A stretch of DNA of 64,000 nucleotides from NCBI RefSeq assembly GCF_011492945.1, contig NZ_CP045119.1:2356001-2420000 (forward strand). The letters are read 5' to 3'. Shown in pieces: positions 11,931 through 16,875 of the stretch. Each line of letters begins with the position of its first letter. Position 1 is the stretch's first letter. Made by a program: the position numbers and the translations under genes. The DNA comes from Rubrobacter tropicus. Its GTDB lineage: Bacteria; Actinomycetota; Rubrobacteria; Rubrobacterales; Rubrobacteraceae. A model generated the notes under the pieces. That model made no database searches. It was not told where the DNA came from and saw only the letters and a program-made list of their open reading frames with translations.

Positions 11931-13457
11931 CTAGCCGCGGACGCGCTGGATCTCGCGCAGGAACTCGGCGTTGGAGCGGGTCTCCTTGAGCTTCTGGATC
12001 AGAAGCTCTATCTTCTGCGCCCCGTCGAGGGCGTTGAGGATGCCCCGCACCTGCCAGACCCGCTGGGCCTCGGCCGGCTCCATGAGCAGCTCTTCCTTAC
12101 GCGTAGAAGAGTCCTCGATGTTGATGGCCGGGTAGATCCTGCGGTTCGCCAGCCTGCGCTCCAGGTGGATCTCCATGTTGCCCGTGCCCTTGAACTCCTC
12201 GTAGATCACCTCGTCCATCCGGCTCCCGGTCTCGACGAGCGCGCTCGCGAGTATCGTCAAAGACCCGCCGTCCTCGATGTTCCGCGCGGCCCCGAAGAAC
12301 CGCTTGGGCGGATACAGCGCCGCGGAGTCCACGCCACCGGACAGGATGCGTCCGCTAGCCGGGGCGGCCAGGTTGTAGGCCCTGGCGAGCCGGGTGATGG
12401 AGTCCAGGATCACGACGACGTCCTCGCCCTCCTCGACCAATCGCCTCACCCGCTCCAGCAGGAGCTCGGCCACGGCTATGTGGTTGTCGGCGGGCTGGTC
12501 GAAGGTAGAGGCGACGACGGTCGCCTCCTTGACGCTGCGCTGCCAGTCGGTTACCTCCTCGGGCCGCTCGTCGGCGAGCAGGACGAAAAGCTTCGCCTCC
12601 GGGTAGTTGGCGGCGATGGACTGGGCGATCTGCTTGAGGATCGTCGTCTTGCCGGCCTTGGGCGGGGAGACGATAAGCCCGCGCTGTCCCTTGCCTATCG
12701 GGGTGATGAGGTCCATGACGCGCGGGGCTATGTCGTTGGGCTTCCACTCCAGGCGCAGGCGCTCCTGCGGGAAGAGCGGGGTCAGGTCGTCGAAGTTCTG
12801 GCGGCGGCGTCCCTTCTGGGGCTCCTCGCCGTTTACCGTCTCGATGCGGACCATCGCCGGGTACTTCTCGCCCTCGCGCGCCGGCCGGATCTGGCCGACT
12901 ACGTGGTCGCCGCGGCGGAGGTTGAAGCGCTTGATCTGGCTGGTCGAGACGTAGACGTCGCCCCTGCTCTGGCTGTACCCGCCGGTCCTGAGGAAACCGA
13001 ACCCGTCGGGCAACACGTCGAGGATGCCGCTCTGGACGTTCTCCTCGCCGCCGCGCTTCTCCTGCTGGCCGTCCCGGCCCTGCTGCTGCTTCTGCTCGGG
13101 GCGCTTGCGGTCCTCCCGGCGCTCCTCGCGCCGGCCTTCCTGACGCTGCGGGCGTCGCTGCTCGGGGGCCGGCTGGGCCTCGTCGGCCGTCTCCTCGGCG
13201 GGGGCGAGGGGCGCCTGGGGCTCGGGGAGCGTGGCGGTGGCGGTGTTCCCGTTGCCGGCCGGCGCCTCTGCCACCTCGGGGGCGCCGCCGTTGGTCGTCT
13301 CCGTCGTTTGCTGGCCGGCCTGCTCGGTGGCGACCTGGTAGATCATCTCGGCGAGCTCGGGCTTGCGGTACTTGCGGTACTGCTTGATACCGAGCTGGGA
13401 GGCGATCTGGTGCAGATCACTCAGGCGCTTGCGCTCCAGGGTTGCTTTTTCGGTCAT
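11931..13457 (-). CDS. rho: Transcription termination factor Rho
   Basis: This 508-residue hexameric RNA helicase has an N-terminal Rho-N segment (residues 1-45), then a low-complexity insert rich in Gln, Glu, Arg and Pro (about 48-140), an OB-fold RNA-binding domain, and an ATPase with P-loop [12 protein letters not shown] at 260-271. The usual P-loop reads APPKAGKT; here Ala is Ser. Long N-terminal inserts are typical of high-GC actinobacteria and can add RNA affinity. An intrinsic terminator follows. It stands between the glpX-like gene and rpmE. Confidence 0.97.
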
Positions 13458-13524: not shown

Positions 13525-14514
13525 TCAAAGCTGGAATCCCTTGCGCCCGGCTACGGGCTCCAGGGCGTGAATGGTGTCCATAAATCTTACCACACTGGGC
13601 TCCGTGGACATCACCACCGTGTGCGTCCTCGCCCCGCCCCGGAAGTACCTGACCCCGTTCAGGATCTCGCCCGAGGTGATGCCCGTGGCGGCGAAGACCA
13701 CGTCGTCTTCCCGGATCAGGTCGTCGAGGGTGAGCTTTTTCTCCGGGTCGTCGAAGCCGTACTCCCTGAGCTTGTCCACCTGCGAGCGCTGCGTCGGCCA
13801 CATCCTCGCCTGCATCTCGCCGCCCAGGCACTTCATTATAGCCGCGGCCAGGATGCCTTCCGGTGCGCCGCCTATACCGACTATGGCGTGGACCTCGGCG
13901 CCCCTCATTCCTACCGCTATGGCCGGCGTCAGATCCCCTTCGGGCCGGATCTGGATTCTGGCCCCGGTCTCCCGGATCTCGCCGATCAGGTTCTCGTGCC
14001 TGTCGCGGTCGAGCACGGCGACCGTGGTCTCCTCGGGCCGGCGGCCGATCGCCTCCGCTACGGCCCTCACGTTCTCGGCGACGGGCGCGTCTATGTCTAT
14101 GGCCCCCTTCGCCCCCGGCCCCACTATGAGCTTGCTCATGTACATGTCCGGCGTCCTCAGGATGCCGCCCCTCGGGGCCGCCGCGACGGCGGAGATCGAA
14201 CCCTCCTGTCCCCGGATGAGCAACTGCAGCCCCTCCACGGGCTCGACCGCGAGGTCGACCGGCAAACCGCCGGCCCCCAGCACGTCGCCCACGTTCAGGG
14301 CCCCCGGCCCGCTCCGCGGGGCGCTGACCCTGCCCTTCTCGTCCAGGCGCTCCTCGCGCAGGCTCGCGACCTCGCCTTCGTTCGAGACGCCGCTCAAGCC
14401 CTCGCCGAAGGTCTCCATGGCGAGGGTGTAAGCGCCCTCCGGATCGCCGGAACCTTCGAGGCGGGCCACCTGCAAGGCCACCATCTCGGTAACGGCCGCG
14501 TACTCGACGGCCAC
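13525..14514 (-). CDS. GlpX-like (class II fructose-1,6-bisphosphatase) protein with altered active site
   Basis: This 329-residue protein is plainly homologous to Glp[29 protein letters not shown] (217-220) and [14 protein letters not shown] are near standard. The metal and catalytic region is not. The family motif AVDPIEGT reads AVEPVEGL at 89-96, so Asp becomes Glu and the catalytic Thr becomes Leu. The upstream GEGExDEAPML segment is replaced by [16 protein letters not shown]. Fructose bisphosphatase activity is therefore doubtful; a regulatory role or a new substrate is possible. The GTG start gives a full-length fold, so this is not truncation. Confidence 0.85.
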
Positions 14515-14733
14515 GGATGCTATGGACCCCTGGCGGGGATCGACCTCTCTAATGGGTTCTCACCAGACCTCCCGTGCCGGCCAAGGTGTCCCGCCTAAAA
14601 CGGGCGCCTTTGATGGCAGGATCTGCTCGGAAACGTCGCGGAGCGGCTCTTTACCTCTCGGGGATCGGAACCAGCGTATCGGACTTCAAAAGTATACACG
14701 GTCCTTTGCGGTAAGACCACCGGGGCCTTCCCA

Positions 14734-16038
14734 TCATCCCACCGCCCCGCGCGCCAGCCGCAACAACTCCCCGTCGAGCCCCTCCCCGACGGGATCGTTG
14801 TCGCAGTACAGCACCGGCCTGCCCTCCTCCGCGCCGCGCCGGGTGATCACGTCGATGGCCGCCGCCTTTATTTCCGTGAGATACGCGTCGACGGGCGGCA
14901 TGCCGTCGAGGTCCGCGGCGAGCCGCCTCCTGTCCGAGAGGTTGCCCGACGCGGCCGCCACCTCGCACCCGTACCGGGTCTCCAGGTGACGCGCGAGCTT
15001 GTTCAGCACGGATTCCGGGGCCGTCGAGACGTAGGCGAGGCGCAACCCCGAAACGTCGCCCACGGGCCTGGGCCTGAAGACCGTCGGAACGACGGGAAGG
15101 TCGGGCCGGATCTCCCGCACCCGCTCGATAAGGTCCCGCACCTTCTCCTCGCCCGCCATGGGCTCCTCGCTCATCGTCAAGAGCAGGAGGTCGGAGATCA
15201 TGAGCCGGTAGGCGCCGAGGTAGCCCGCTACGTACTCGGGGTCCTGGTGGGCTCCCGCGACGAGTATCCTTGCGTCTACCCGGACCGGGGGCATCGCAGC
15301 GCCCGATCCGTCGAAGAGAGTAACGCCGGTCCGGAGGTCGTTGGCGATACCGGCTCCTTCTAGCACGTTGGAGACGAACGGCTCCCCGGCGAGCCCGCCG
15401 CCGCATCTGCGGCACCCGACGGTCGTAACCCGGCTCAGCGCCGCCGTCTCGTAGTAGTCGCTCGCCGCGTGCGCCCCCCGCTCCAGCGCTTCGAGAAGAT
15501 AGGCGCTCCCGACCTCCAGCTTGTGGCCTTCGATCACCTCGGGCCGCGGCGGTCCCCCGCGCCCCATCGAGACCACCCCAGGATCGAAGCCCTCCCGCGC
15601 CAGAAGGCGCGCCAGATACCCGGAGACGGCGGTCTTCCCTACCCGCTTGCCCGTGCCGACCACGGCAAGAGAGGGTTTCGTCGATACGTCGCGCAGTTTC
15701 GGCGGCCTGAGCTCGAAGTCGCTGCCGACGTAGCGGGCGCCCTCCGCCAGGGAGAGGGAGGCTATCCGCATCCTTTCGCGGTAGCCGATGACGGGCTCGT
15801 CGGAGAGGTCCACCACGACGTCCACCGCGTGTTCGGAGAGCGCCCGGGCGACGGCGGAGACCGGATCGTCCCCGTGGACGAGGGGCAGGCCGTAGTCCGT
15901 GCCCTCTTTCAGCTTCTCCGTGCCGCCGAGAAAGGCCGCCGCCACACCCACAGCACCCATCGATCCTTCGACGCTGCGCATGGCATCCAACACGACGGGC
16001 GGGTAGTGCTCGCCGTCGATCAAAAAGAGCGCCCGCAC
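14734..16038 (-). CDS. Cyclic 2,3-diphosphoglycerate synthetase homologue
   Basis: This 434-residue protein has a P-loop GTGKRVGKT at 128-136 and a C-terminal region typical of the cPGS family known from thermophilic methanogens, where it cyclises 2,3-bisphosphoglycerate with ATP to the thermoprotectant cyclic 2,3-DPG. A CRRCGGG pair of cysteines lies in the middle. It precedes glpX-like and follows a metallophosphoesterase with a 15-nt gap. Whether the bacterium makes the solute is unknown. The assignment rests on recognition of overall sequence rather than on a proven motif set. Confidence 0.8.
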   Translation of the reverse strand: MRALFLIDGEHYPPVVLDAMRSVEGSMGAVGVAAAFLGGTEKLKEGTDYGLPLVHGDDPVSAVARALSEHAVDVVVDLSDEPVIGYRERMRIASLSLAEGARYVGSDFELRPPKLRDVSTKPSLAVVGTGKRVGKTAVSGYLARLLAREGFDPGVVSMGRGGPPRPEVIEGHKLEVGSAYLLEALERGAHAASDYYETAALSRVTTVGCRRCGGGLAGEPFVSNVLEGAGIANDLRTGVTLFDGSGAAMPPVRVDARILVAGAHQDPEYVAGYLGAYRLMISDLLLLTMSEEPMAGEEKVRDLIERVREIRPDLPVVPTVFRPRPVGDVSGLRLAYVSTAPESVLNKLARHLETRYGCEVAAASGNLSDRRRLAADLDGMPPVDAYLTEIKAAAIDVITRRGAEEGRPVLYCDNDPVGEGLDGELLRLARGAVG

Positions 16039-16053: not shown

Positions 16054-16875
16054 TTACTCGCCGAGGGCGACTTCGGGGTCGGCGCCGACGTCCGCGTCGA
16101 TCCTGTCTTCGTAGCGGACGTACTCGTGGGTGACCGAGTCGAAGTCGACCGTCAGCTCCCGCTGCTTGAACGGGTACTTGCGAAAGACCTTCACCCGCCC
16201 GTCCTCGATCTCGATGATGTTGTAGCAGGGCCGCGTGTTGCCCCGCAGGCGCGTCGTGGAGGCCGTGCCGGCGTTGACTATAAAGAAGTCCTCAAGCTTC
16301 CAGGAGTAAGGGACGTGCTTGTGGCCCGAGAGGACCAGGTCGACGCCCACATCGTCCAGAAGTTCGAGCACGTCGCCCGCGTCGAAGATGATGTTCCGTT
16401 CGCGGCCGGTGCCGGGGATCGGGATGAGGTGGTGGTGGATCACGAAGATCTTGAGCCGGCCTTCCGCGTTCGCGAACGACTCGTGGATGAACCCGTAATG
16501 CTCCCGCCCAACCCGCCCATCGTTCAGATCGGGCTCGGACGAGTCTATGCCCACCATCACCGCGTTGTCGAACTCGATGCAGGAGTACCGCTCCCCGAAG
16601 AGCCGCTCGAAGTGCACGTACCCGACGTTGCGCGAGTCGTGGTTGCCCGGGATGACCATCACGTTCGGGCAGTCGAAGCGCTGGATGTACTCGGCCGCGA
16701 TCTCGAACTCCTGCCTGTAACCCGCGTTCGTCAGGTCGCCAGAGACCACGACGGCCGCCGGTTCGAGGTCGTTTATCTCCAGGATCGAGCGCTCCAGAAG
16801 GTCCGGGATAAAATACGGGCTTCCGCAGTGGATGTCGCTGATCTGGCAGATCGTCAACCGGCCGCCTGTGCTCAT
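16054..16875 (-). CDS. Metallophosphoesterase (CpdA-like calcineurin fold)
   Basis: This 273-residue protein shows the full set of dimetal motifs in order: DIH near residue 15, GDLTNAGY, GNHDSR, IHHH and GHKH. The order and length resemble class III cyclic-nucleotide phosphodiesterases (CpdA/Icc), but the family acts on many phosphoesters. It lies 15 nt upstream of the cPGS homologue, probably in one operon, so it could act on a cyclic phosphate linked to that enzyme; this is speculation. Confidence 0.88.
   Translation of the reverse strand: MSTGGRLTICQISDIHCGSPYFIPDLLERSILEINDLEPAAVVVSGDLTNAGYRQEFEIAAEYIQRFDCPNVMVIPGNHDSRNVGYVHFERLFGERYSCIEFDNAVMVGIDSSEPDLNDGRVGREHYGFIHESFANAEGRLKIFVIHHHLIPIPGTGRERNIIFDAGDVLELLDDVGVDLVLSGHKHVPYSWKLEDFFIVNAGTASTTRLRGNTRPCYNIIEIEDGRVKVFRKYPFKQRELTVDFDSVTHEYVRYEDRIDADVGADPEVALGE

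Follow-up and report, generated by a model that had tools for sequence, protein, structure and literature searches.

Rubrobacter tropicus encodes a homolog of the class II fructose-1,6-bisphosphatase (FBPase) GlpX whose active-site death is well supported. The gene lies in a 64,000-nucleotide stretch of the genome, here called the window. A reasonably likely explanation, drawn from sequence comparison, is that the protein is a catalytically dead FBPase that has kept hexose (bis)phosphate binding and acts as a sensor or regulator, with a pyrophosphate (PPi)-dependent phosphofructokinase (PFK) carrying out the gluconeogenic step. Full-text literature searches turned up no publication on a GlpX pseudoenzyme and none on Rubrobacter together with fructose-1,6-bisphosphatase.

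Family membership and predicted fold

The gene, as listed mechanically, is:

13525..14514, minus strand: coding sequence of the GlpX-like pseudoenzyme, GTG start, 329 amino acids

The stop-to-stop frame comprises 344 amino acids and reaches 14559. Residues 2–316 match PF03320 (E 1.5e-98; 329.9 bits against a gathering score of 27), which places the protein in the GlpX sequence family over its whole length. Against the NCBIfam equivalog TIGR00330 it scores 237 bits, below the cut-off of 259.3. No other PF03320 match exists in the 4.58 Mb genome to which the window belongs, and a second, active GlpX elsewhere in that genome is thereby ruled out.

An AF2 model built from the orthologs alone was set aside (pLDDT 44); with seven distant relatives added, the model (32 sequences) reached a mean pLDDT of 89.4 and a pTM of 0.89. 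Its best matches in structure comparison, including Foldseek, are all class II FBPases. Compared with E. coli GlpX carrying fructose-1,6-bisphosphate (F1,6BP) (2r8t), it gives a Z of 44.4 and an rmsd of 1.5 over 305 residues, and the next family, IMPase/SuhB, follows at a Z of about 12–13. Family match and predicted fold agree with the first-pass annotation of this DNA, which held that the fold-defining segments are kept.

Loss of the catalytic center

The active site of class II FBPases is formed by Asp33, Glu57, Asp85, Glu88, Thr90, Tyr119, Lys164, Arg166, Asp188, and Glu213 (PMC5892879; E. coli numbering). The 6-phosphate is held by a Tyr/Arg/Arg triad, catalysis requires the interaction of Thr90 with Asp33, and the Thr84Ala mutant of Mycobacterium tuberculosis FBPase II, equivalent to Thr90, is inactive (PMC5892879). 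The furanose hydroxyls are bound by a DGD motif, and the Thr is the proposed nucleophile (PMC10289334). We aligned 30 distinct Rubrobacteraceae orthologs, E. coli GlpX, and a further 14 GlpX proteins, which places the corresponding residues of the window protein as follows (numbering of the 329-residue form):

14428..14430, minus strand: Tyr29, at the position of the catalytic and metal-binding Asp33; Tyr in 29 and Phe in 1 of the 30 aligned orthologs
14227..14247, minus strand: VEPVEGL, residues 90–96, replacing VDPIEGT; Asp85 becomes Glu91, Thr90 becomes Leu96, and Glu88 is kept as Glu94
14140..14142, minus strand: Tyr125, equivalent of Tyr119 in the 6-phosphate pocket; invariant in the alignment (role from PMC5892879)
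13999..14007, minus strand: Arg170-x-Arg172, equivalent of Lys/Arg164 and Arg166 in the 6-phosphate pocket; invariant (role from PMC5892879 and PMC10289334)
13933..13941, minus strand: Glu192-Gly-Asp194, the furanose-binding DGD, with Asp186 changed to Glu and Asp188 kept (role from PMC10289334)
13858..13860, minus strand: Glu219, equivalent of Glu213; invariant in the alignment

All 14 canonical GlpX proteins keep Asp33, Glu57, Asp85, Thr90, and Asp186. Among the orthologs, the catalytic Thr90 is Leu in 30 of 30, and both metal ligands, Asp33 and Asp85, are replaced, the latter by Glu in 29 and by Val in one (L047); Asp186 is Glu throughout. Glu88, Tyr119, the Arg at 164, Arg166, Asp188, and Glu213 are unchanged in all 30, so that the 6-phosphate/furanose pocket (Tyr119, Lys/Arg164, Arg166, Asp188) is invariant. 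Read with the published roles, these changes place the losses on the side of the active site that cuts and the conservation on the side that grips.

The replacement of VDPIEGT by VEPVEGL had been pointed out in the first-pass annotation, which took the changed positions to be those of metal ligands and the catalytic Thr. Both points hold, since Leu at Thr90 recurs in every ortholog and is no accident of one sequence, and the positions have active-site roles in PMC5892879. It recommended an alignment with GlpX structures; the alignment with GlpX proteins finds Thr90, Asp33, and Asp85 replaced across the clade. A DNA pattern for VEP[IV]EGL, run over 396 genomes of the phylum, also gave many raw matches outside the Rubrobacteraceae, and the motif may not be confined to the family.

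The GEGE segment is altered in another way:

14296..14361, minus strand: remodeled GEGE segment, residues 52–73, LREERLDE with an insert of about 8 residues; from the alignments, and the lowest-confidence loop of the model

The claim that the GEGExDEAPML region is lost was too strong, as it is remodeled rather than missing. One alignment puts Arg at the Glu57 position; a second, with one extra residue upstream, puts an invariant Glu (Glu54) at that position and retains the DE of GEGExDE. The residue at Glu57 is thus Arg or Glu depending on the alignment, in a part of the model (residues 51–70) that is its least certain, and this metal ligand may survive. With Glu88, Glu213, and perhaps Glu57 remaining, one metal could still bind.

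Inheritance, selection, and deletion

The gene occupies a conserved neighborhood, which includes:

11931..13457, minus strand: rho, directly downstream; conserved neighbor in Rubrobacteraceae loci
14734..16038, minus strand: cyclic 2,3-diphosphoglycerate (cDPG) synthetase homolog, upstream neighbor; 417 bits to PDB 8ORU; conserved
16054..16875, minus strand: calcineurin-type metallophosphoesterase; conserved neighbor

Where the fetched stretch reaches, the order in the Rubrobacteraceae is argS, phosphoesterase, cDPG synthetase homolog, glpX-like gene, rho, rpmE, DUF1385, prfA, prmC, TsaC. This conserved order indicates that the glpX-like gene is most likely a vertically inherited family copy and not a recent import. 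In the tree the 30 orthologs cluster together with strong support, set apart by a long stem (1.44 changes per site). The nearest row is L017, with intact motifs, and given the risk of long-branch effects the exact sister is unsure.

Between close ortholog pairs dN/dS is approximately 0.07–0.17, indicating that the protein is under selection, and 107 columns are invariant across the ortholog alignment. The protein thus combines missing catalytic residues with conservation and purifying selection, the hallmarks of a pseudoenzyme. An ortholog is present in 31 of 36 Rubrobacteraceae genomes, in one of them split over two contigs, and two incomplete assemblies (G003 and G025) have no match. In the other three (G010, G013, and G024, the last 99% complete in 3 contigs) the gene is absent with its neighbors in place, and a decayed 3′ end of it remains before rho. 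The best alignment scores of these fossils are 97 (G010), 66 (G013), and 96 (G024), against shuffle maxima of about 30–40. The glpX-like gene can therefore be lost.

One of the deletion genomes, the metagenome-assembled genome (MAG) G013, carries a GlpX whose GEGE and DPLEGT motifs are intact (L018, contig C346). RuBisCO subunits, an AAA protein of the cbbX type, and an aldolase lie on the contig with it, in a RuBisCO-cbbX-glpX-aldolase cluster, and the contig may be bin contamination. In another Rubrobacteraceae genome a RuBisCO large-subunit match falls in two pieces (L154, G030:C1:3453629-3454463, minus strand), and that gene is perhaps broken.

The strongest rival explanation is that the protein still works as an FBPase: Glu91, Glu94, Glu219, and perhaps Glu54 would hold one metal, an activated water would replace the Thr, and hydrolysis would be slow yet useful. 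The invariant Glu88 and Glu213 equivalents, the alignment that keeps Glu57, and the one-metal mechanism proposed for Francisella tularensis FBPaseII (PMC10289334) all lend it something, as does the position of this protein as the sole GlpX of its genome. We nevertheless consider it unlikely, given the inactivity of the M. tuberculosis Thr-to-Ala mutant (PMC5892879), an aromatic residue at Asp33 in all 30 orthologs, the Val at Asp85 in L047, and the three deletions, in two of which (G010 and G024) no other GlpX was found. The protein very probably has no FBPase activity, to judge from the residues replaced.

The neighboring genes

The first-pass annotation named the neighbors correctly as a cDPG synthetase homolog and a phosphoesterase. 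The former is a strong homolog of the archaeal enzyme, is conserved near rho in the Rubrobacteraceae, and has no Pfam family match. This setting suggests a second rival, in which the protein acts on a new substrate or catalyzes a new reaction, perhaps as part of cDPG metabolism together with the adjoining synthetase and phosphoesterase. The three genes adjoin one another in the Rubrobacteraceae and the synthetase homolog next door is a strong one, but the block runs on into rho, rpmE, prfA, and argS, which makes neighborhood alone a weak guide, and the synthetase and phosphoesterase remain where the glpX-like gene has been deleted. Moreover, the residues that bind the sugar side of F1,6BP are unchanged in all 30 orthologs, a sign that the ligand is still of the same kind. 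The new substrate that the first-pass annotation had offered as an option is accordingly left without support, and this rival seems improbable.

Adjacency to rho raises a further idea, that the role is non-metabolic, for example in transcription beside Rho, in the way that SuhB, of the same fold, acts in rrn antitermination. In Rubrobacteraceae loci the glpX-like gene immediately precedes rho, and the model resembles the SuhB chain of the rrn antitermination complex (6tqn_S, Z 12.4). Such a role would have no need of invariant FBP-pocket residues, the adjacency may be mere old synteny, and no contact with Rho or Nus factors is known; we regard it as quite improbable.

A candidate rho promoter in the 3′ end

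The 3′ end of the gene may serve as DNA as well as coding sequence:

13584..13592, minus strand: TGGTAAGAT, in the 3′ end of the glpX-like gene; candidate extended −10 promoter for rho, kept in orthologs and recognizable in the three fossils

Over residues 321–340 of 344, divergence at fourfold sites is 0.35, down from 0.58, and the low-divergence segment holds TATGGTAAGATT-like DNA in the orthologs, with recognizable forms in the three fossils. The segment resembles an extended −10 element serving rho, and such a role would account for the sparing of the 3′ end in all three independent deletions. A sigma-70 scan found no two-hexamer promoter site. That the locus is kept mainly for such DNA reasons, with the protein as a passenger, would fit both the spared 3′ ends and the drop in divergence, but is very improbable and already disfavored by the purifying selection on the whole protein (dN/dS and 107 invariant columns, above).

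Probable start codon and leader mini-ORF

The conserved N-terminus extends upstream of the listed GTG (14514) to the codon at 14553–14551, and the region appears to be organized as follows:

13525..14553, minus strand: probable true coding sequence of the GlpX-like protein, 343 amino acids, ATT start, suggested by an in-frame N-terminus conserved in 30 orthologs
14551..14553, minus strand: putative ATT start codon, from the aligned first codons of the orthologs
14549..14563, minus strand: mini-ORF GTG AGA ACC CAT TAG, its stop overlapping the ATT start; a like mini-ORF occurs in 28 of 30 orthologs
14567..14573, minus strand: Shine-Dalgarno-like GGGAGGT, from the sequence

The aligned first codon of the 30 orthologs (L019–L058) is ATT in 14, ATC in 6, ATG in 7, GTG in 2, and TTG in 1, where for L052 and L057 the count uses the ATC that follows one codon later. 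In L024 the first approximately 32 codons contain no ATG, GTG, TTG, or CTG. A strong Shine-Dalgarno sequence lies 11–20 nucleotides upstream of the aligned ATT/ATC/ATG position, as a rule too far from it, and a GTG or ATG 4–5 nucleotides past the GGAGG opens a mini-ORF of 4–9 codons in 28 of 30. Translation thus appears to start at the conserved ATT/ATC codon behind the mini-ORF, and we interpret this arrangement as re-initiation at AUU/AUC coupled to the leader. In this segment pN/pS is 0.47 with pS lowered, compatible with coding together with RNA constraint, weaker than in the rest of the gene. A programmed +1 frameshift is disfavored as the source of the odd start: the mini-ORF lies in different relative frames from species to species, and every codon at the aligned position is a start codon or a near-cognate one.

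Conversion of fructose bisphosphate in the Rubrobacteraceae

The search for a normal FBPase that the first-pass annotation recommended was run on the window genome and returned no other GlpX and no class I, III, or V enzyme; classes III and V were not found in any of ten Rubrobacteraceae genomes, this one included. The window genome has three IMPase-like proteins, none reaching the cut-off for class IV (bifunctional FBPase/IMPase), which could nonetheless supply FBPase activity. An IMPase-like match at G000:C1:1110575-1111045 (minus strand; L004) accounts for just positions 1–162 of the 271 in the family, beyond which the frame appears to be out of register, perhaps through a frameshift. A search for PEPCK as a sign of gluconeogenesis, covering the GTP type, found none.

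The proposed replacement is a PFK (L070) placed by NCBIfam in TIGR02483 PFK_mixed, which carries GGDDT and PKTIDND, with GGDD in place of GGDG. The Lys of PKTIDND is a second marker of PPi-dependent PFKs. GGDD is the mark of these enzymes, which are readily reversible (PMC12203962). A PFK with both GGDDT and PKTIDND occurs in 21 Rubrobacteraceae genomes, 18 plus G024, G027, and G030, and the PPi type is kept in all three deletion genomes. The window genome has further PFK copies of ATP-type or odd character. Its second PFK (L064, G000:C1:4095144-4095965, minus strand) shows GGGGS and PATIDND at the positions that set donor specificity, a combination that is neither the usual ATP type nor the PPi type.

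No PPi-type PFK was found in five MAGs of the genus to which the window belongs, one of which (G006) is 98% complete, so, judged by the available assemblies, the replacement does not extend to every member. Three outgroups (G036, G041, and G048) have a GGEDT/PKTIDND PFK alongside an intact GlpX, indicating that a PPi-dependent PFK alone did not force the loss. In most members of the Rubrobacteraceae, the conversion of FBP to fructose 6-phosphate (F6P) is quite probably performed by this PFK.

Proposed function and significance

As a pseudoenzyme, which the first-pass annotation had suspected, the protein is borne out by the clade-wide replacement of the Thr, the activating Asp, and the M1 Asp, by the inactivity of the Thr-to-Ala mutant (PMC5892879), and by the lack of any other FBPase found. 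In the explanation that we favor, that of a dead FBPase still able to bind its ligand, a class II FBPase inherited vertically in the Rubrobacteraceae lost its catalytic center before the family diversified, namely the nucleophile Thr, the M2 Asp that activates it, and the M1 Asp. What it retained is the fold, together with the pocket gripping the 6-phosphate and the sugar of F1,6BP or F6P. The protein would no longer hydrolyze F1,6BP; it would bind hexose (bis)phosphate without turnover and act as a metabolite-responsive partner or sensor, and the reversible PPi-dependent PFK would make F6P from FBP, removing the need for FBPase catalysis. That hexose-phosphate binding, as sensor or partner, is the retained function has in our estimate an even chance. 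A fuller scenario, in which a dead FBPase serves as a dedicated sensor of hexose (bis)phosphate or as a regulatory subunit, has its dose controlled through an AUU/AUC start coupled to the leader mini-ORF, and leaves the PPi-dependent PFK as the sole FBP-to-F6P enzyme, is speculative and rather doubtful as a whole.

The Rubrobacteraceae, a family of hardy soil bacteria, look like a natural case in which an FBPase has been inactivated by replacement in most lineages and deleted in three, with the PPi-type PFK kept. The apparent lack of any FBPase replacement other than the reversible pyrophosphate enzyme makes the question of sugar synthesis in these bacteria directly testable. In a published comparison of genomes, R. 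radiotolerans is credited with an FBPase (EC 3.1.3.11; PMC6741124), a call that is probably wrong if, as is likely, it was based on the glpX-like gene.

Comparison with known systems

The closest known systems are the class II FBPases of E. coli (GlpX, 2r8t/3d1r), M. tuberculosis (6ayy/7txb), and F. tularensis (7txa), which have the same whole fold and length as the GlpX-like protein. E. coli GlpX is 36% identical to it, and the Tyr/Arg/Arg 6-phosphate pocket, Asp188, Glu213, and Glu88 are common to both. Unlike these enzymes, the GlpX-like protein has Leu for the Thr nucleophile, Tyr or Phe for Asp33, Glu or Val for Asp85, and a remodeled GEGE loop with an insert, and it falls below the TIGR00330 equivalog cut-off. 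The cyanobacterial FBP/SBPase (3roj, 5a5l) and the GlpX of the CBB operon in G013 (L018) belong to the same family and fold, but in both the catalytic motif is kept. SuhB is an example of the IMPase superfold doing non-enzymatic work. It shares that superfold with the GlpX-like protein (6tqn, rrn antitermination complex; Z 12.4), at only 11% identity.
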